A stretch of DNA of 64,000 bases from Thunnus maccoyii (taxonomy: Eukaryota; Chordata; Actinopteri; Scombriformes; Scombridae). The translations under genes and the position numbers were made by a program. The stretch's first letter is position 1. Each line of letters opens with the position of its first letter. The DNA lies in the NCBI RefSeq assembly GCF_910596095.1, contig NC_056535.1, positions 25,824,505-25,888,504 on the forward strand, read 5' to 3'. Below the pieces are notes generated by a model. The model saw nothing but the letters and a program-made list of their open reading frames with translations, ran no database searches and was not told where the DNA came from. Below, piece by piece: positions 6,065-51,845 of this stretch.

Positions 6065-7260
6065 GTAAGTGGTGCGGACATCTGCACACAGCTGGATTTA
6101 AACTTTTTTAATTCACCGTTTATCGGCATGTGTTTGTAAGTGCTTTGAGGTTACGATCTGATTAGGGTAATGATGTTGCTGTTTATGTTGTGGCTTTCAA
6201 TGTCAGCTCGGTGTGAAAAGTTCATTCAGATTTAAGATTTAAGCAGCAAAAAGCCATTCTTAAATAAAAAGAATTGGCTTTCAGAAGCAATTAAAAGTGC
6301 CTAAGATGCAAGGATGTATACTTAATCGCACTTTTCAGTTCTATGCATCTGCATCTGCATCTGTCCTTTCTCTTGGACTTAGTAACCCCTCTTTGCAGAC
6401 ACGGTGCAATCAATACACTTATTTTTTGCACAGGCCCTATCACGATGTCCTTACATAAGAAGATTCAATTCTATATCCTGGACTGTTACTTTAGCTACTA
6501 CAATGCAAGTGGAAATAGAGCCAGATGAGTCTCCCTGAGTGCGAAGGGCCCTCGGTGTCAAGTGGACACAGAGGTTGCAGCTTAAAAGTGTGTGTTAGGA
6601 TTTGGTTACCTTTCCGAACCAGACAAACGGAATGATGAATGGCTACTTAGAGATAAAGTAAACGTGATGCTGATAGACTGGAGTCTGTAGTTAGAGACTG
6701 ATGTTTGTTGAAACGTTTAAAAATTAAGAAGAGGAAAATGCGTTTCAGTTTTGATGAGTTTCTGCTTTCAGTCGTAAACGAAGGTTCAGAGATTTTCCAC
6801 AAGGAACTGAAACATGTTCAGCTTTTCTAGCAAATGATCAGCAATAATACTATCCATACCTCGTGTAAGCACTTTGACAGCCGAACCTGCTGAGTTTGTG
6901 CTTTCGTTTAGGTCAGGAGAGAGAACTGAGGGGGGAAAAAATAACAGTACAGGCACAGTATAAGATGGCAGGTTCTCTGCTGATGCAAACAGGAGCTGAC
7001 AGAAAAAACTCTTTACCAACAAAACTATATTGCACCATTTAACAAAACATAACACAACTTTGCTTTTTTTTTTTTTTACTCCCTCTTTTACAGATTACAC
7101 AGATGACTGAATCAAAAAGTAGCATACAGCTGCCTGAATGATAACCAGGAGGAGGGAGACCCTGGCAGGATTCAGCGTGGCACTGGTTGTGGTGTCCCCT
7201 CTGTCTCCTGCAGCCAAACCAGGCTGATAGACAAGGCTGTGGATAGCAACAAGGACGGTG

Positions 7261-8952
7261 ATGGAGGTGCCTCTGGTTAATTTTGAGAACATGGATGATG
7301 TCGGTATCAACCTGGGTGACCCGAATGACTCTGGGTACCCGACCTCACCCCCCTCAGAAGCCCCGGATCAGAATCTTTTAACTCGCCGTCTGACGTCTCC
7401 TCATCAGTCACCTCACAGAGGACGACGTAGGCATCATTCCGGTCAAGAGGGGTTGTCACCCTCCACTCCCCCAACTCTGACCACCAAAGCGAATTCCAGC
7501 AGCGGCAGTTTGATCTCTAATCTGAAGCTCCTGATCAACAGTGAGTCTCCCACTGACAGCGTCTTCAGTAAAATGGTGAAGGATTGCTATGAGAATGAAG
7601 ATTTGTTTGAAAAGCAATGCATGGAAGAAAAAGATGAGAAGGTTGTCATCAACATTTCAGGCCTGATGTTCGAGACCCAGCTCAGCACCCTGAATAGGTT
7701 CCCCGAGACGCTGCTCGGTGACCCCATGAAGAGGATAAGCTACTTCGACCCAATGAGAAACGAGTACTTTTTTGACAGAAACCGACCATCCTTTGATGGT
7801 ATTCTGTACTACTATCAGTCAGGGGGGAGAATCCGCAGACCGGCCAATGTTCCCTTAGATGTTTTTGCAAATGAAATTGTTTTCTATGAGTTGGGTCATG
7901 AAGCAATGGAGCAGTTCCGTGAAGATGAAGGGTTTATCAAAGAGCCAGAGGTTCTTTTGCCCACCAACGAACTCCAACGACAATTCTGGCTCCTGTTTGA
8001 GTACCCAGAGAGCTCCAGTGCAGCCAAATCTGTAGCTTTGGTTTCTGTGTTTGTCATCGTCATTTCCATCTTCATCTTCTGCCTAGAGACTCTGCCAGAG
8101 TTCAGGGAGGACAATGACTTTGTCCCAGGCGTAACCCAAATCATCAACGGGACCCAAGACGGTTCTGCCCCTCATCCTGCCGCAAAAGACTTGATGGCGT
8201 ATATCACAGACCCGTTTTTCATTGTGGAGACTATTTGCATCATTTGGTTCTGCTTTGAAGTCGGTGTCCGTTTTGTGGTCTGCCCCAGCAAAAGTGACTT
8301 CTTCAATAACATCATGAATATCATTGACATAGTCTCTATAATTCCCTACTTTGTAACCCTGGGAACAGAGCTGGCTACGACCCCTGATGATGATGTGAAC
8401 TCTGGTCAGAACATGTCCCTGGCAATCCTAAGGATCATCCGACTCGTGAGAGTTTTCCGAATTTTCAAGCTCTCTCGACACTCGAAAGGGCTTCAGATCT
8501 TGGGGCAGACCTTGAAAGCCAGTATGCGGGAACTTGGGTTGCTCATCTTCTTCCTTTTCATAGGAGTCATCCTATTCTCAAGTGCCATCTACTTTGCAGA
8601 AGTGGATGAGCCCCAGACACAGTTTGTTAGCATCCCTGACGGCTTCTGGTGGGCTGTGGTGACGATGACCACTGTGGGATACGGAGACATGTGCCCCATC
8701 ACAATGGGAGGCAAAATGGTCGGCACCCTCTGTGCCATTGCTGGTGTCCTGACCATTGCCTTGCCTGTCCCTGTCATCGTCTCCAACTTTAACTATTTTT
8801 ACCACCGTGAGACTGAGCAGGAGGAGAAACAGGTGATGGATGCAGCTGCAGAGGCTGCCCAGAAAATGTCAGCTGCAAACAAGTACGGAAGCACACCTTC
8901 GCTGAACAAAAGTAACGGTACCTGGCAGAATGAGAAAAATGGCATGCACTGA
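7261..8952 (+). CDS. kcna10: Voltage-gated potassium channel Kv1.8 (KCNA10)
   Basis: Intact 563-residue Shaker-type K+ channel subunit that would assemble as tetramers in the plasma membrane. The T1 tetramerisation domain spans about 126-225. S1 is about 256-275, S2 316-340, S3 349-369, S4 387-407 with the [13 protein letters not shown] arginine ladder, S5 426-446, the pore with selectivity filter TVGYGD at 471-476, and S6 486-512 with the PVP gate motif. A glycosylation site NGT (296-298) lies in the S1-S2 loop. KCNA10 is chosen over other Kv1 members because the N-terminus begins [10 protein letters not shown] (human as recalled: MEVALVNFDN), [20 protein letters not shown] follows T1, and TVGYGDMCP is in the pore. 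The coding region is one exon, as in other Kv1 genes. I chose ATG 7261; the in-frame GTG at 7258 is not a likely vertebrate start. The N-terminal stretch is longer than in human KCNA10 (511 aa as recalled). Confidence 0.96.
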
Positions 8953-33016: not shown

Positions 33017-33361
33017 CTACAATTCAATCAGCTCCTCCTGTCTCTCCTGACTGAAAAGCCAGTCGAACAGAAAGACGACTGAATCTGTCACAAATTCTGC
33101 AATCTTGTTCACGTTTGTCACATACCACACTTTATAACAAACTTCTGCCATCAACACAACGAAGAAAATGGCCAAGACCCCGAGAAAGATGCGGTCCATA
33201 TAATAGTTTGCTTTTTCTCTGAAAGTCCACTGCTCCCAAGGTAGTGCCCGCCGGGCCTCGGTGTATTTACTAAAGTGTAGCAAGACCTTCTGTTCATCAT
33301 CCAGGTCTTCCTCTGGAGCCTCCACATTTTCGACACCCTCTGCTTCATCAGTGTCAGCCAT
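33017..33361 (-). CDS. Small acidic single-pass membrane protein, unnamed
   Basis: A 114-residue intact frame. Residues 1-25 are strongly acidic (MADTDEAEGVENVEAPEEDL). About 26-55 are mixed and charged with LPWEQWTFREK. About 57-78 are a hydrophobic membrane segment (IFLGVLAIFFVVLMAEV), and a second amphipathic, moderately hydrophobic stretch at about 88-104 (FVTDSVVFLFDWLF) precedes an acidic end. There is no cleavable signal peptide, so the N-terminus is probably cytoplasmic. The ATG context on the minus strand is AAAATGG. A donor consensus GAG/GTAAGA on the minus strand near 33495 and an acceptor-like TTTGCAG about 10 nt before the ATG suggest a small 5' UTR intron. I do not recognise the family and assign no function. 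Composition, the clean frame and splice signals argue for a real gene. Confidence 0.65.
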   Translation of the reverse strand: MADTDEAEGVENVEAPEEDLDDEQKVLLHFSKYTEARRALPWEQWTFREKANYYMDRIFLGVLAIFFVVLMAEVCYKVWYVTNVNKIAEFVTDSVVFLFDWLFSQERQEELIEL

Positions 33362-34618
33362 TTTTAATGCTGCAAATGTAAGTTTTCCTCAGTCGCCTAA
33401 GGATATTAAAATGAAAAAAAATATTAGAAAGACTGGTGTATTACAGATAGTGTTTCTTATAAAGCTGTCTTAGAATGAATATTAAGGGTCTTACCTCAAA
33501 GTAGACAAGTCTTTAAGATGGGATGAAGATAAGGTTCACACACAAAATTGAGACTCTTGGCTTTTTGTCTCCTCACCTATCATGCTTGTGCTCCTCAGGT
33601 TTCGGTAGGCCGCTGACCACAGGAGAGTGGTGTGAAGGCAGTAAATGCCAGGCTGATAATGCGACACCTGCCTCACTAAGACGAGGGCTGGGGATTAGAA
33701 CACACTCAGCAGTTTCAAATCCCTCAACAAGGATGAAGGTGACAGATGGTAAAATAAGTATTACTGTCTTTGTCAGAGAGAGGCAGACAGAGACAAAGAA
33801 ATAGAGGGTGGAGGTTTCAGATGACAGCATGTTCATGTCAAACTATTTCAACCTTACAACTCTCAGGTGGTCAGCCTACCTGATGTGAATGAACTTTAAT
33901 CTGAGTAGAAGAAATGTCTTGCTGGAGCTCACTGTAATATTTACAGAAAAACCTGGTGTGTTAAACATTTCAAATGACAAAAACATTTAAACTCAAATAT
34001 TCTAAACCAGATTTTTTTTTCTCTGTGTGTGAAAATGTGTGACTGAAATCAGGCAGAAGTCAAGCTGATGACAAAGCAGAACTGACAGCTTCAGCAGAAG
34101 CTTTAGCAGAGTTGGAATAAATCACTTCAACATAATGCTCTGTGGGTAATTTACTCAAATGCTTCAGAGCCTTTCCAACATGCTGCCACAGCTATTGAAA
34201 TATGGCTTAAACTAGCTGAATTAGCTGAAGAGGTGCCTGCATTCTGTGATAAAGACTAATGGTTGGATTGCTTTGTCGTTGCCACAATTGTGTTTCATTT
34301 AGTGATTTCATTGGCAATTTGCATTCCAGGCTAGGCCTTTTCAGTTCTATTAAATGGGTTTCCACAAAGCATTTCACAACACACTGTACTCTCTATTGAT
34401 CCTACTCAGTAAGTCCTGCTACTCTGAGTCTTCTGCTTTTTGCTCACGTGATTACTCAGAGACCAAATGTGAGTAGTTGCAAATCTCCTTTTGGAAATTA
34501 ACTGAAATCAGCATATGTAGATGTGAAATAATAATAGTAATGAGACATGTTAATAGTCAAGCTATGTATGTTTATTCTGGATAACAAGCTTTTTAAACAT
34601 GAAATGTTTGTTGTACTT

Positions 34619-34824: not shown

Positions 34825-36897
34825 TTAATGTGGTGATATTTTTGAACTCCCTTTAGTGTCACAGGGATTCTCCAGTCCTTCTGGCATGTTTACATCCACT
34901 TTCTCAGTCAGGGCAGGTGTGCTGGTGGGGTACGGGGTGGGCTCTGTGGACTTACATAACATGCAACGATGAGTGATCTGGATCAGTGTGACACGGAACC
35001 GCTTTATCCTGAATGCATAAACCAACGGATTTAGTGCTGAGTTCACATGGGACATGAAAATGCCTACATACATGGCAAACTTAGGTATGACACACCCTGG
35101 GCAGAAGAAAGTGATGCAGTTCATGATGTGTATTGGCAGCCAACAAACAACAAAGAGGAAGACCACCAAGGCCAGTGACTTAGCCAACCTCAGCTCTTTC
35201 CTTAAGTACCTCTCTCCATCACAAGTGGCTTCAGCACGTTGGTTAAGCTGTCGCCGGATCACCCTAAAGATCTCCCCATACAGGGCAATCATTATGGTCA
35301 GCGGTACCACCACCCAGCCGAAGAAATTGAAGTACACCATGTAGTCCATCCTCATCACAGTAGTAAATTTGCAGATGATGTCGCTGGAACTGCTGAGGTT
35401 TTGTTGAGCATCACGGTTATTCCAGCCAATCATTGGAACCAATCCAGTGAGGAAGGACAGGATCCAGCACAGACAAACGGCCACATATGCCCTCCTCTGG
35501 GTCACTATGGTGCAGTACCTGAGCAGGGTTATTGGGAAAAAAATGATGACAGGTTTTTCAATCACCTAAATGCACGCATGCATACTACTGAAGTAGTATT
35601 TATTTGAACAAATGCCAGCCTACATATTTATTATTCAGAGACATTTGATCAAGTTGCTGCTTTTCAGATTAGGACCCAACTGATAAAAAATGAAGTAGTA
35701 TGGGCGACTGCCAAAATCCCCTAACAAACTATGCCTATGTCAGTTATTTAGGCAGACAGGGACATTTTAATTTGCTTAAAAGCTTTTGATGTCCAGCCCA
35801 TTGATTTGCATTAAACCAAGCAACGATATATGGTGCCATGTCAGACATCAACACTTGGAACCACCTCCTCTTGATTGACTACCTGAGGCTAAAAGCACAC
35901 ATTTAGCTCTCTAATGCTGAAAGCAGTAAAAAATATTTTGCATCAGACACTACTGGTCCTACTATTATAACTATTTATTCTTCTAAAATATTCTTGGGAC
36001 ACATTAGGTTAAGAGGTTTATTGTAAAACTAAGGGGGGTGGCTGTTGGGGAAAGAGTTCAACTGGTTTTGTTGATGTTGGTTCTGAGAACAACACTTTTG
36101 TCATGTTGGGCTGTAAAAGATAAAGGTTGCTTGTTAATATCAAAGAGATACATGGGGTCAAGTGTGTATTTCCAGTGAACTTAGCCTGATGAATGAACAT
36201 GTTCAGTATATTTCAGTGAAGGGATAGTTTGAATAATAGTTTGTTTATGTCAGCAAACTGGACTAGACTGGAACACACAATCACAACCAATCAGGGATGA
36301 TATTGACATCCACTTCCTCTTCTCAGTTATGAATATTTTATTGCTCTTACCATAAGAACTGACATGTCAATTACTGTACAGTATTGATACTGTAATACGA
36401 GTGTTATCACAACATCAACAACCAAGACCTACCAAACCAATCTTGACTTTCTTCTAATAAGTTTATGTTTATATCATAAAAAAAAAAAAAAAAACATTTC
36501 AAAGGAACATGTGACCAATTGATTTTACAACAGTTTCTCACCTGGTTGGAATCTTGACCCGCAGATATCGGTCGATGGCGATAGCGAGCAGGGAAAGGAT
36601 GGAGCCCTGGGTGATAATGAGCAGCAAGCAGGAGAGGAAGAGGCAAGTGTAGAACTGAGTGTTAAATCCCAGACTGATGATAATGGCCAGAGGGATGACC
36701 AAAACTCCCACAGCAATGTCAGCCACCGCCAAAGACACGATGAAGCAGAAGGTAGTGTTACGGAGAGCCCGGTTCACACACACCACCAGCACCACCAGCA
36801 CATTCCCCAGCACAGAGGCCAGAGCGATGGCTGTCTCAATGGAGATGTACATCATGTCCACATGCTCCCGAGGCTTGATACCAGGAGAGGAAATCAT
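34825..36897 (-). CDS. adora3: Adenosine receptor A3-like GPCR (minus-strand copy)
   Basis: Two coding exons, 36897-36542 and 35518-34825, joined as CCAACCAG/GTACTG with GT-AG borders; 349 residues. The single intron after the DRY-containing exon matches the known adenosine receptor gene structure. Features: seven membrane segments; TM2 [20 protein letters not shown] at 109-111; glycosylation site NLSS in extracellular loop 2; Cys in TM3 (C85) and loop 2 (IICKF) for the disulfide; the ligand-pocket Phe followed by Thr, where A1/A2 receptors have Glu; TM6 Asn in HIMNCI; TM7 His in [22 protein letters not shown] and [13 protein letters not shown] resemble human ADORA3 more than ADORA1. Expected to couple to Gi and lower cAMP (family knowledge). 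I chose ATG 36897; an upstream in-frame GTG is not credible. The tail is longer than in human A3 (318 aa as recalled). Confidence 0.9.
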
Positions 36898-37458
36898 TTT
36901 CACTACTCAAAGATGTTGCTTACCTTTTCTCAGACTGTAAAAAAATATAAATTGGTTGTTGAAACTTCTTGCCTCTGCTCTGGGCTTTGCTTCAGCACAG
37001 AACCATCTTCCATTGTGTGAGTTCTCTAGATGAAAGAAGAGTACTTTTTCTCTTTGTCACATTTACACACTGAGTGGCCCTTCTACTGATGACTGGATGT
37101 TGAACGATGAATCCTCCGCATGTTTGGGTATCAGTGCATCACCACTCTTCTACATCCTTCCTCTCTCTTACTCACTCTCTCACTAGTCTGTAAAAAAACG
37201 AGTCATAAAAATCAAGGGGAGGGACTTTGATTTCTGCAGTATGCTGCAGTAATAGTTGTGCTCACATTAAGTGCATGATTTTGATAAGAACTGTGGTCTT
37301 CATGTAAGAGCTGAAAGGACGCATTTTGATAAAACGTGTTAAAAATAACAAGCTCTTAGCTGAAGATGGATGCTTTAGAACTGATTTTATCTTACTGTGT
37401 AAGTAGAGGAAAGCGCAGTGCATAAGATATATCTGAGGAACAGTGTTGCTATATATAT

Positions 37459-40400: not shown

Positions 40401-40774
40401 TTACATATACATAATCACATAGATTTTTGTTGGCATATTAAGTTAATACCAGCGATTGTTTTCAACAAAATACATAGCCTATTGTATGCAAAAACTACTT
40501 TTGCTGCTCAAAACTACCATGTGTGAGTCTCCTTTGAGTTGAAAGGTCAGTTGAGCCGAAATCTGTGGTGGCTCCCCCCTCAACTAAGACAAAATAGCCA
40601 AGACTCTGAGATATATTTAGTTTGCTGACCCCCCAACTGTTTTAGCAGTCATGTATATTAGAACACTGGCTGACCTGCTGTTTTACACTGAGAATGATAA
40701 TACATACTCAACAGGCAGACTCCGGTCCGGATCCAGACCAAATAAAAATTTAATCTGAACTGGGAACAAAACCT

Positions 40775-41955
40775 GGGCTGTTTTTGAGTAACACATCACT
40801 CTCATGTCACCTCACCTGTCATCTTTCAACCACTATCCTGATAAAGAGGTTACGTGATTGGATGGGCATATCAGGCATAGCATTAGACTGGTTTATATCT
40901 TATCTCACTGACAGAAGTTTCACCGTCTCTATTGGTGACTTTGTGTCTGATTCCTCTCCACTGTTGTGTGGTGTTCCACAAGGCTTCGTTCTGGGGCCTC
41001 TGTTATTCTCTATATATTTGCTGCCCTTGGGATGGATCATAAACAGATTTGTTGTTGCTTATCATTTATTTGCAGATGATATCCAACTCCACTTTTCATT
41101 CAAACCTAGTGAGGCTTTTAGGTTATCTAGACTCCTAGACTGTCTTAACGCTATTAAAGACTGAACGTCAGAATATTTTCTACAGCTTAATCCTGATAAG
41201 ACGGAATTTCTGGTCTTTGCCCCAGAAAAGGTTGCCCCTGAGATTATGAAAAGTATTTAGCCTGTTTCCTCCGCTGCCCACTCCAACCTGTGTAATGTTT
41301 GATCAATCTTCGTTGTTTGACACCCATGTTACGCAGATGACCAGATCTTGTTTTTTCCACTTAAGAAATATTAGTAAACTGAGATCTGTAGTTTCAATGG
41401 CTGAACTAGAGATGCTCAAACATGCCTTTATCTAATCTCGTATTGACTACTGTAATGCACTATTCTCCTCTTGTAGTATCTCTGCCTTAGATCGTCTGCA
41501 GACAGTCCAGAATGCTGCCGTGAAACTACTAACTAGGTCAAATAGATTGTCTCACATTACCCCTATGCTTAAATCTCGTCACTGGCTTCCTGTTGCATGT
41601 AGGATTCAGTTCAAAATTCTCTTTCTTACTTACAGAGCTTTACAAAGTAAGGCTCCTGCATATGTGGCTGATCTACTACACTCTTACTCATCAGCTCACT
41701 CTCTTGTAATGCTCTGCCTGCACCCTTCCAGTCTGCTGATTCTGTGCGTTCATTTAAAAAGCAGCTAAAGACACACTTGTTTAGACAGGCATTTGGGTAA
41801 CTTGTAAGCATCAAGGCAGCATTTTATGTTTTTATCGTGTATTTTTTATTGCAGATTGTGTTTTTTGATTTCTTTCTTTTCTGTATGTTGTATCATGCTC
41901 ATGTAAAGCACTTTGTGACTACTGTCTGTGAAAAGTGCTATATAAAGTTTGAGAA
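40775..41955 (+). mobile_element. Degraded non-LTR retrotransposon (CR1/L2-like LINE)
   Basis: The plus-strand frame at 40784-41164 has reverse-transcriptase motifs: GIALDWFISYLTDRSF, then GVPQGFVLGPLLF, then FADDIQL (the YADD-type catalytic box with Phe for Tyr). After a stop at 41162-41164 the similarity goes on in broken frames: LNPDKTEFLVFAPE, then DYCNALFS, then LQTVQNAAVKLLTRSNR and HWLPVACRIQFKILFLTYRAL. That order is characteristic of the C-terminal half of fish CR1/L2/jockey-group LINEs. The 3' end carries GTAAAGCACTTTGTGACTAC and AAAAGTGCTATATAAA. It is 5'-truncated, with several stops and frameshifts, so it is inactive. Confidence 0.88.
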
Positions 41956-46522: not shown

Positions 46523-47148
46523 TGAAATTCCTGCAGCACAGTGCTGACTAGCTGTGCCACTCTCATTGTAAGATATTAATGGATTTACAATGACTCGTTG
46601 TCTTTGATGTTTGAAGTGTGATCATGGTTGTGGTTAACTGTTCATGTTCTTGTGTGATAACTGGCTGTCACTTCAAAGGTTAGATGCAGCTTAGAATTTT
46701 AAAGCAGCTTGTGTGCAACATCTTTTACTTGCAAGTTGTTTATCTGTAAATCATTTGTGGTAAAAAAAAAAAAAAACCTGTGTTGTTTCCTCCTGACAAA
46801 ATGTAACGCAACAGCTCTTTTGTAAACTTTTTTGGTGTGACCTGTTGCAACAGCCTACAGTGCATTTTTTTCTGTCAAACTCCGCTTGCTTAGCATTACA
46901 ATTTATCTGCAATGTTTATAGGAACAAACAAAAACATATTTTCTCAATTGTACACATACTACAAAACATTCAGATACATAGTTTACAGAGAAAGTATCAA
47001 AGGGTGTAGTTCTAATTTTAAAAAGAGCTGATTGGCTGAGGACTTCCTCAAAGATTTCACAAGACCGAGATGAATGATAAATGGCTCAGACTCACATTCA
47101 GACACGCTGCATGGATAACAATCCAACGTTAGCCTGACAGGACGCACA

Positions 47149-48837
47149 ATGGATGTGTGTGAAGTGATCTACATGGTGATGGAGGTGATCATTGCTGTCA
47201 GCTGCTGTCTGGGTAATATGCTGGTTATTTTGGCCCTGTGGACCAGTAAGTGCATTCAACAGCCCACCTTCTGCCTTATTGTCTCTCTGGCTGTTGCTGA
47301 CTTTATGGTTGGCTGCATAGCCATACCAATGGCTGTGGTGGTGGACGGAAAAGTGGAAACTTCATTCCACGGCTGTCTCTTTATCAGCTGTGTGGTGATC
47401 TTGTTGACTCTGGTCTCAGTTCTGTCTCTTGCGGCTATTGCAGTCGACCGTTTCCTCCGGGTGTATGTCCCTCTCAGGTAATTTTTCTTCTTTCATTGTG
47501 TTAAGGAAAGTAAAATAGCACTGCCTGGTTTGGTATTTAATCATAAGCTTTAGGGCTGCAACTAACAAATATTTTCATTATCACTTAATCAATTATTTTC
47601 TTAATTAATTGGTAAGTCATTTGGCCTATAAAATGTCAGAAAATGGTGGTTTGCCAAAGCCCAAGGTGACATCCTCAAACGTCTTGTTTGTTTGTTTTTT
47701 CAAATGTCTCAAAAGGATTAATTGATTATCAAAACAGTTGGCAATAAATGTTCTGTCTATTGATTAATTGATTAATCAACTAATCGTTTCAGCTTTAAAC
47801 TTAAGATATTCAATTGACTGTTATATGTCGAAGACAAAGACTCACATTTAAGAAGCTAGAACTAGAGAATTTTTGGTAGTTTTACCTAAAAAAATGACTG
47901 AAATGTTGAATCGGTCATCAAAATAGTTGTCGATTAAAATTATTTTGATTTATTAATCAACTAATCGTTGCGGCTTTAATAAGCTTTACATTTTCTCTAT
48001 TTCATGTCATTCTCATCTCTCAACCTTTCACATGGCTTGCACTGCAAAAAGGCATTAATTTACTGTATATTACTACTATCACTTCATAATTTTTTAAATA
48101 AATTCTAATTCTCTGCATTTTTTGTCACAATACATGATTGATTATGTCAATAATTATGATTTATTATTAACTGTCTCTATAGGTACAAAAGGACTGTCAC
48201 ACAGAGACATTCTTGGCTTGTGGTAGCAGCATGTTGGCTTGTTGCAATACCACTGAGTTTTGCACCCATGTTTGGATGGTACAACCAAAAAACCTCGTCT
48301 AAGCCTAGCATTCTCTGCACGTTTACAGCCGTGATCCCCATGTCATATCTTGTCTACTTTAACTTTTTCCTCTGCACCCTGATACCGCTGTTGATTATGG
48401 CTGTATTTTACGGCTACATCTTCTGTACCATTCGAGGAAACCTTCGAGAGAAACCAGGCAACGGTGTCCAAACACAGTCTTACAACTACCTAAGGAAAGA
48501 GAAGCAGCTGGCAGGATCTCTGTCTCTGGTCTTGGTCCTGTTTGCCCTGTCCTGGCTCCCGCTCCACATAATGAACTGCATTGCGTACTTAGGTGGTCCG
48601 AACATTGTAGCAAGAGAAGCTTTCTATGTTGGCATTCTGCTTTCTCATGCTAACTCAGCCGTAAACCCAGTTGTGTATGCATTCAAAATACAGAAGATCA
48701 AGACAGCATACCTGAAGATCTGGCGACGGTGTACTGAATGTGGAGAAGATAATCAAAGCTCTCACACTAGCGGGACGACAGACAACAATCTCAGCAACAA
48801 CAGTGTGGCCAAAATGACTGTCACAAACAATGGTTGA
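47149..48837 (+). CDS. Adenosine receptor A3-like GPCR (plus-strand copy)
   Basis: Two coding exons, 47149-47477 and 48183-48837, joined CTCAG/GTACAAA with GT-AG borders in the same place as in the minus-strand paralogue; 327 residues. It starts [14 protein letters not shown] without a glycosylation site. TM2 is [17 protein letters not shown]. The TM3 end is DRF at 100-102, where almost all family members have DRY. Loop 2 has Cys then Phe-Thr (ILCTFTAV), matching the first copy and unlike the Phe-Glu of A1/A2. TM6 HIMNCI and TM7 [14 protein letters not shown] keep the Asn and His of the adenosine pocket. So ligand binding looks intact. The C-tail ends TVTNNG. Polyadenylation could use AATAAA at 49300-49305. 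A3-type is the best assignment; the exact teleost symbol (a second adora3 copy) is not decided. Confidence 0.88.
47551..47978. mobile_element. Complete CTGCAACTAA-family hAT-like element in a receptor intron
   Basis: Begins TAGGGCTGCAACTAAC and ends ACTAATCGTTGCGGCTTTA, an imperfect inverted pair. ATAAGCTT flanks it on both sides (47543-47550 and 47979-47986), an 8-bp target duplication as made by hAT transposases. Inside, near 47770-47798, an extra terminus-like segment (CTAATCGTTTCAGCTTTAA) makes the copy look like a 1.5-unit composite. No coding capacity. Confidence 0.87.
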
Positions 48838-50527: not shown

Positions 50528-51193
50528 TTAAAGGGGACATACAGTATCATGCTTTTTGTGATTTTCTGTTATTTTTATACTGTTACAATGTTGGATGTCA
50601 ATGTTAAACACAGTCAAATTTCAAAACTTGAGGTGAACGTATGTAAAAATACTCCCTACAAGTCAAAAGCCAGGGCTTCAGCCTGCTCTGAATGCTTCAT
50701 TTGCAAAGTTACCTCCACTTCCTCCTCGTGATGACATCTGATTGTTCCATGCCCACAAATGTCCATCTGTTAGGCTTTGTTGCTAAGGTTGTTCCACGGG
50801 TTGTTTATGTGCATAATTCAGATCGGAATCGGGCTTGGGGATGTATTAGAGAAGTTTCATGTTGAGTAAAGAACAGGAAAAAAGAAGCGACATCCTATTA
50901 TTATTATTGTTTTGGGTTTTTTTTAATGTAGCTTCTGGAGTTGGTGGAAGTCTGCCGAGGAGAAGCTTCCGGGAGCTAACCAATCAGAATAGTGTGGGCT
51001 CATCGGGAGGGCGGCCTTAAAGAGACAGGAGCTACAACAGCCTTTCAGACAGAGGCTGAACCGAGGTGTTGTATAAAGATTCAGTATAAGATAAATAAGG
51101 AGTTTTTTTAACTGCAAATCATGCAAAGATATTCCAGTAGAGCCCCAGAATATAAATACAGACTACGAAATGTGCATGATACATCCCATTTAA
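50528..51193. mobile_element. TTAA-bounded non-autonomous DNA element
   Basis: Starts TTAAAGGGGACATACAGTAT and ends GATACATCCCATTTAA; the ends are inverted copies (TTAAA-GGGA-TA). TTAA at both borders suggests piggyBac-type target choice. The interior has AACCAATCAGAATAGTGTGG, TTAAAGAGACAGGAGCTACA and GCCTTTCAGACAGAGGCTGA, which I recall as a frequent teleost repeat. It lies 250 bp from the let-7 cluster. Confidence 0.75.
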
Positions 51194-51444
51194 TATAATG
51201 CTGATCAAAGACTTGTACAGGTTATGTTGTGTTGTCTCGTCTTAAATCACAAATTATTGTCACTTATAACTCATTTATGGTCATTTTTCACACTTCAAAA
51301 CACCAGATACACACAATACAGGTTCAGGGGTCCAGAAAATGTTCCAGAGTGATGTTAGTCTTTGGCCACAAGATGGCATCAAAGTGGCTCCTTCACTCAG
51401 TCTGTGTGAGTGAGCTTAATTCCAAGCACTCATTGTACCTCTCA

Positions 51445-51527
51445 AGAAAGGTAATAGACTGTATAGTTATCACCTGAGTAGGATTCACTCCATCCCACAA
51501 ACTATACAACCTACTACCTCACCTTGC
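51445..51527 (-). ncRNA. let-7a: microRNA precursor let-7a type
   Basis: The minus strand carries the let-7a mature sequence: TGAGGTAGTAGGTTGTATAG plus TT, 22 nt, at 51521-51500. It lies in the 5' arm of a hairpin whose 3' arm, ATAACTATACAGTCTATTAC (about 51471-51452), pairs along its length. The loop between holds about 30 nt (GTGGGATGGAGTGAATCC...). Both flanks add pairing (AAGGTG with the matching 3' end). Mature let-7 represses target mRNAs through the seed GAGGTAG; LIN28 recognises let-7 precursor loops (family knowledge). Sequence and fold together leave little doubt. The number of the paralogue is not decided, because several let-7 loci share this mature form. Confidence 0.95.
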
Positions 51528-51758
51528 TAGGCTCAACTTCAAGCACAAATACATATCCTAAAAAAAAAGTCTTCTTTAGAACGTTTTAAGTAAACAAGTT
51601 TCACTGCTACATCTGGTAAATATATAAAGTTTTTCTTGTGCTTGCAGTCTCTTCTTCAAAGGTGAAGGATGGGTTATCTCTTTAATATTTGTTCAGTCCA
51701 TAAGTTATTTTATCCATGAAGCTTTGTCTTTTTGGCATCACAGCAGATCAACCTGTCT

Positions 51759-51845
51759 CCTTAGGAAAGACAGTAGATTGTATAGTTATCTCAGAGGGAG
51801 GACACAAACCCCACAACTATTCAATCTACTACCTCAGCCTTAAGG
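51759..51845 (-). ncRNA. let-7k: microRNA precursor let-7k type
   Basis: The minus strand holds TGAGGTAGTAGATTGAATAG plus TT at 51836-51815, in the 5' arm of a hairpin. The 3' arm ATAACTATACAATCTACTGT (about 51790-51771) pairs with it, and the outer CCTTAAGG/CCTAAGG-type flank closes the stem. The A at position 12 and GAA in place of GTA separate it from let-7a and let-7f. It equals chicken let-7k as I recall it. It lies about 315 bp 5' of the let-7a hairpin on the same strand, so both probably come from one primary transcript. Confidence 0.93.

Follow-up and report, generated by a model that had tools for sequence, protein, structure and literature searches.

An intact two-hairpin let-7 cluster in a teleost genome and its probable counterparts, chicken let-7k/let-7j and zebrafish dre-let-7e/dre-let-7a-5

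Vertebrate let-7 microRNA genes occur in many copies, and a pair of let-7-like hairpins beside an adenosine receptor gene raises the questions of whether the pair is an intact microRNA cluster, which of the named vertebrate clusters it represents, and whether mammals have kept it. We addressed these questions for a 64-kb stretch of DNA, hereafter the window, which lies on contig C3 (37.6 Mb), and extended the search to the whole 782-Mb assembly of 54 contigs.

Two let-7 hairpins on the minus strand

By searching the window with the Rfam let-7 family model (RF00027), two minus-strand hairpins were obtained, k with 69.2 bits (E 1.9e-12) and a with 72.8 bits (E 2.1e-13), both above the gathering score of the family, 53.5 bits (Table 1). 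At the gathering threshold, Rfam found three elements in the 64 kb, namely these two let-7 precursors and a potassium-channel editing signal. Read along the minus strand, k precedes a. The k and a mature sequences each occur once in the window, with starts 315 bp apart, and both lie in the 5′ arm and are base-paired with the 3′ arm in the predicted fold; both 22-nt 5p strands carry the seed GAGGUAG at positions 2–8. The first mature sequence is UGAGGUAGUAGAUUGAAUAGUU, as expected for a let-7k/let-7j (fish let-7e/let-7a) cluster, and the let-7a/j hairpin is found within a few hundred bases on the same strand.

Both segments were folded, a check that the earlier note had proposed, and both were far more stable than dinucleotide shuffles. 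The a hairpin reached a minimum free energy of −35.8 kcal/mol (z −5.6), with none of 1000 shuffles as stable, and the k hairpin −30.1 kcal/mol (z −4.6), with one of 1000 as stable. Comparison of the strands, minus vs plus, gave −35.8 vs −20.3 at the a locus and −30.1 vs −20.3 at the k locus. Rfam, the exact mature positions and the fold thus agree with what the earlier note had read from the letters, that is, two minus-strand hairpins about 315 bp apart with a let-7a and a let-7k-type mature sequence in their 5′ arms. The element is a real, intact and well conserved two-hairpin let-7 cluster. A single minus-strand primary transcript would probably be cut by Drosha and Dicer to give two let-7 guides, both with the seed GAGGUAG, and processing of the window hairpins into mature let-7 is what their sequence would predict. 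In tissues undergoing differentiation, guides of this family repress the usual targets of let-7.

Table 1. Features of the window (window positions) and let-7 hairpins of the genome (contig, position in Mb)
Feature	Location	Strand	Evidence
let-7 precursor hairpin, transcribed first (chicken name let-7k, fish name let-7e)	51761..51842	-	Rfam RF00027, fold
k mature, 5p strand, TGAGGTAGTAGATTGAATAGTT	51815..51836	-	exact match; letters of published let-7k/let-7e
k hairpin 3′ arm opposite the mature (predicted star region, predicted ends)	51767..51788	-	fold; same letters in C4 copy
let-7 precursor hairpin, transcribed second (mature is let-7a)	51442..51527	-	Rfam RF00027, fold
a mature, 5p strand, TGAGGTAGTAGGTTGTATAGTT	51500..51521	-	exact match
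a hairpin 3′ arm opposite the mature (predicted star region, predicted ends)	51448..51469	-	fold; one-letter difference from C4 copy
adenosine A3-type receptor, coding exon 1 (open-frame bounds)	47119..47478	+	Pfam 7tm_1; C4 counterpart
adenosine A3-type receptor, coding exon 2 (open-frame bounds)	48160..48834	+	best fit to solved adenosine A3 receptors
potassium channel gene of Kv1 type, used as synteny anchor (open-frame bounds)	7231..8949	+	Pfam Ion_trans and BTB_2
k/a pairs, two	C3 window; C4:18.321		
a/f pair, one	C3:3.908		
a/b pairs, two	C5:10.943; C23:10.004		
pairs with mir-98-like second member, two	C4:16.574; C4:29.449		
single let-7 hairpins, seven	C5, C23, C3:20.30, C6, C13, C10, C15		

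Genome-wide, the family search returned 23 rows, two of which were reverse-strand matches over hairpins already counted and were left out. At least 21 let-7 hairpins were found in this way, 20 above the cut-off and one at 53.0 bits, and the single hairpins on C6 and C13 both lie no more than about 1 kb from a hairpin of the mir-10 family.

A second copy in a collinear block

Among the genome matches was a second k-then-a pair at C4:18321105-18321436, and the 130 kb around it were compared by translated frames with the window and a further 70 kb on the right. C3 carries, in this order, an A3-type receptor (+), the let-7 pair (−), a TEAD gene (+) and a plakophilin-like gene (+), and C4 has the same neighbours with the order inverted and the strands flipped. 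The TEAD gene by the let-7 pair scored 424.0 bits against TEF-5 vs 388.3 against TEF-3, which we take to be TEAD3 and TEAD4, respectively, while the plakophilin-like exons scored 97.3 bits against plakophilin 1 vs 61.6 against catenin delta-1. Beyond the receptor, three Kv1 genes lie on each contig (C3 at 25.799, 25.812 and 25.832 Mb; C4 at 18.474, 18.458 and 18.432 Mb), with one-to-one matching established for the window's own gene only, whose best other match is C4:18431843-18433318 (75% identity) and which, from its long N-terminus, is presumably KCNA10-like. The collinear neighbours of the C3 and C4 pairs are a case of double-conserved synteny, as expected from the teleost (3R) genome duplication, which would have copied the cluster together with its neighbours, both copies being kept. 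Together with the gene and let-7 content, the doubled block suggests that the genome is that of a bony fish.

Among these neighbours is the A3-type receptor gene, whose larger exon scored 165.3 bits against solved adenosine A3 receptors vs 149.6 against A1 chimeras. It converges on the let-7 pair from the opposite strand and ends 2.6 kb from the nearer hairpin, which accords with the adora3-type gene placed there, within about 3 kb, by the earlier note; its suggested use as a synteny marker is a good one, for the gene is convergent with the let-7 pair on C3 and C4 alike. On C4, the receptor frame is likewise convergent and ends about 0.6 kb from the pair (C4:18321105-18323337), and thus the let-7 transcript may be overlapped in antisense by the receptor 3′ UTR. 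The C4 receptor (C4:18322050-18323337) also has an apparent extra intron late in the coding region, absent from the window copy.

Between the two let-7 pairs, the k mature, the k 3′ arm and the a mature are all identical, and the a 3′ arm has one letter changed, A to G in the C4 copy, which would keep the pair as G-U. The loops have diverged, the flanks beyond the hairpins align poorly, and the DNA matches end near the hairpin ends. Such keeping of the arms while loops and flanks diverge is the mark that selection on the precursor would leave.

Several other features of the window were recorded. A second adenosine receptor gene at 34828-36906 (−) is nearer to A1 (227.5 bits) than to A3 (196.1 bits); the translated-frame comparison revealed nothing in the C4 block that would be its own counterpart, and its best other genome match is at C4:15.707 Mb (54%). 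The potassium-channel RNA editing signal of Rfam, at 8674-8787 (+) with 116.7 bits, lies inside the Kv1-type gene, where the codon at what we presume to be the editing place reads isoleucine (ATT), so that editing could occur. A LINE-like reverse-transcriptase remnant occupies 40754-41765 (+), with Pfam RVT_1 on 40754-41161 and a second open frame behind it, and an open frame of 123 aa at 33020-33388 (−), which matched nothing in Pfam at E 0.001, contains what by eye is probably a membrane segment. The stretch 50545-51103, adjoining the let-7 pair, is about 70% alike to C4:18335370-18335858 and to another place on C3. It was rejected as a part of the conserved block and looks like an interspersed repeat, because the match on C4 is separated by about 14 kb from the C4 let-7 pair and C3 has a further match.

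Counterparts and names in other vertebrates

The letters of the k mature have been published under two names. They are given as let-7k, with gga, in PMC2644714, in line with the let-7k type assigned by the earlier note, and as flounder let-7e in PMC3092494, which gives oan, tni, fru, dre and gga as the species that conserve them; this list apparently goes by sequence, for chicken is included although its gene is named let-7k. Published tables for sturgeon, zebra finch and silver carp also call them let-7e, a tongue sole primer named oni-let-7e contains them, and reports of its cloning or sequencing cover flounder, sturgeon, zebra finch and silver carp. Chicken let-7j and let-7k, given in the earlier note as a chromosome 26 pair, are indeed placed by PMC2777939 at chr26:1442697-1442779 and 1442897-1442979 and were sequenced there from lung and trachea libraries. 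The chicken let-7k mature is identical to that of the window, and the two hairpins lie close together in both cases, 233 bp apart in the window, where both are on the minus strand, and 117 bp apart in chicken.

For fishes, table 1 of PMC5372658 gives the pairs dre-let-7e/dre-let-7a-5, ola-let-7e/ola-let-7a-2 and fru-let-7e/fru-let-7a-3. These zebrafish, medaka and fugu clusters are likewise two paired genes, and the fish let-7e mature is the first mature of the window; they are likened here by membership and mature sequence to the window cluster, whose genome has two such pairs. The cluster is thus already known, being catalogued in zebrafish, medaka and pufferfish, and its supposed novelty in fish does not survive. 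In Japanese flounder, PMC8869744 reports 20 let-7 copies, compared with the 21 hairpins here, and four clusters of the same kind, E, F, G and H, traced through vertebrates by synteny, of which F would by elimination correspond to the window cluster. A naming trap is cleared at the same time. Zebrafish and human let-7e share one row in a published table, and human let-7e belongs to the mir-99b/let-7e/mir-125a cluster (PMC4742387); the fish let-7e of the pair is the chicken let-7k mature and is distinct from human let-7e.

We therefore hold it to be highly probable that the window contains an intact two-hairpin microRNA cluster, which in this teleost corresponds to chicken let-7k/let-7j and to zebrafish dre-let-7e/dre-let-7a-5. 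Orthology to the chicken pair would be supported by mature identity, pairing, close spacing and the gene content of chicken chromosome 26, and the a hairpin is, from its pairing, the probable counterpart of chicken let-7j.

Two other readings were weighed against this one. The window pair could be a decaying or unprocessed let-7 copy, with the working genes elsewhere (C4 and other loci), and its second hairpin does sit on a branch longer than that of its C4 twin (0.55 vs 0.09) and has a less stable fold (−35.8 vs −44.8 kcal/mol), while the genome contains six further perfect let-7a matches that could supply let-7a; but the mature letters and both arms have been kept, the changes being mostly in the loop and flanks, and both hairpins exceed the Rfam cut-off and are far more stable than shuffles. 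Decay, disfavoured above all by the conserved arms, is consequently regarded as quite improbable. Since the let-7a mature is common to seven places in the genome, the window's included, one might also suppose that the pair arose by lineage-specific copying from a different let-7 locus and has no relation to chicken let-7j/k. This is hardly credible in view of the collinear C4 block, which has the same pair in the same order; moreover, the k mature equals chicken let-7k in PMC2644714 and PMC3092494, and PMC5372658 lists clusters with the same members for zebrafish, medaka and fugu.

Relation to other tandem let-7 clusters and loss in mammals

A tree was built from the 21 let-7 hairpins with 15-base flanks. 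The k hairpins of C3 and C4 joined each other (98) and then the first hairpins of both a/b pairs (76), and the second hairpins of C3 and C4 likewise paired (98), with the second member of the a/f pair joining next (89), which places the window "let-7a" precursor nearest to let-7f and let-7k nearest to first-position let-7a. The k/a and a/f second hairpins joined weakly (59) with a group of let-7b, the mir-98-like seconds and let-7i, in which the mir-98-like seconds fall with let-7i; the hairpins are short, supports outside the best-resolved pairs range from 25 to 93, the first hairpins are spread over more than one clade, and any deeper order in the tree is tentative. In human, table 2 of PMC4742387 gives the tandem clusters let-7a-1/f-1/d, let-7a-3/b and let-7f-2/mir-98, on chromosomes 9, 22 and X, which are of the same kind as the window pair, and this table holds no k/j counterpart. 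The tree of the fish counterparts points to a possible common origin of the tandem let-7 clusters, and the window cluster would be grouped with the vertebrate pairs let-7a-1/f-1, let-7a-3/b and let-7f-2/mir-98.

A search of the genome for TEAD genes gave 20 matches, spread over five places (C3, C4, two on C5, and C1). The C5 a/b pair lies 0.27 Mb from a TEAD gene, which scored 369.2 bits against TEF-3 vs 356.0 against TEF-1, and 1.8 Mb from Kv1 genes; this one positive case suggests that the TEAD3 and TEAD4 blocks share an origin in the early vertebrate duplications. Two observations count against such an older duplication: for the four remaining tandem pairs (C3:3.9, C4:16.6, C4:29.4 and C23:10.0) this search found no TEAD gene nearby, and the Kv1 genes of C23 lie 14 Mb from the C23 a/b pair.

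The LIN28 motif GGAG was found just before the 3′ strand in 14 of the 21 hairpins. The seven that have none at this usual site are all four k/a hairpins, the hairpin that comes first in each a/b pair, and the let-7f member of the a/f pair, and hence its absence is not unique to the k/a cluster. The second hairpin of the window has a GGAG earlier in the loop, and its C4 twin has none.

As for mammals, we take the species code oan to denote platypus, and human ADORA3 and TEAD3 to lie on chromosome 1 (1p13) and chromosome 6 (6p21), respectively. The human let-7 family given in PMC4742387 comprises 12 genes on chromosomes 3, 9, 11, 12, 19, 21, 22 and X; its human table places none of them on chromosome 1 or 6, and its species table shows no let-7j or let-7k for human or mouse. 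To that extent, the earlier note's view that mammals lack the locus stands, but as worded it was too broad, given the oan entry in PMC3092494, and PMC2644714 reports 6 pig reads of the k sequence. The oan listing suggests that the pair was lost after monotremes split off, and the pig reads are at odds with a complete lack of the pair in placentals, unless what was read were let-7f variants, let-7f being different at a single base.

A scenario that we put forward only tentatively, and consider rather unlikely, is that the tandem pair originally lay between ADORA3 and TEAD3 and disappeared from placentals when this stretch broke, fish and birds keeping a let-7 source that is less restrained by LIN28 and supplies let-7 earlier in development. 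The ADORA3 and TEAD3 neighbours offer a test of where and when mammals lost the pair, and the missing GGAG would furnish a simple prediction about LIN28 control: if true, two precursors lacking GGAG at the usual site, as seen in the fish, may be held back less by LIN28 and would give let-7 earlier in development.
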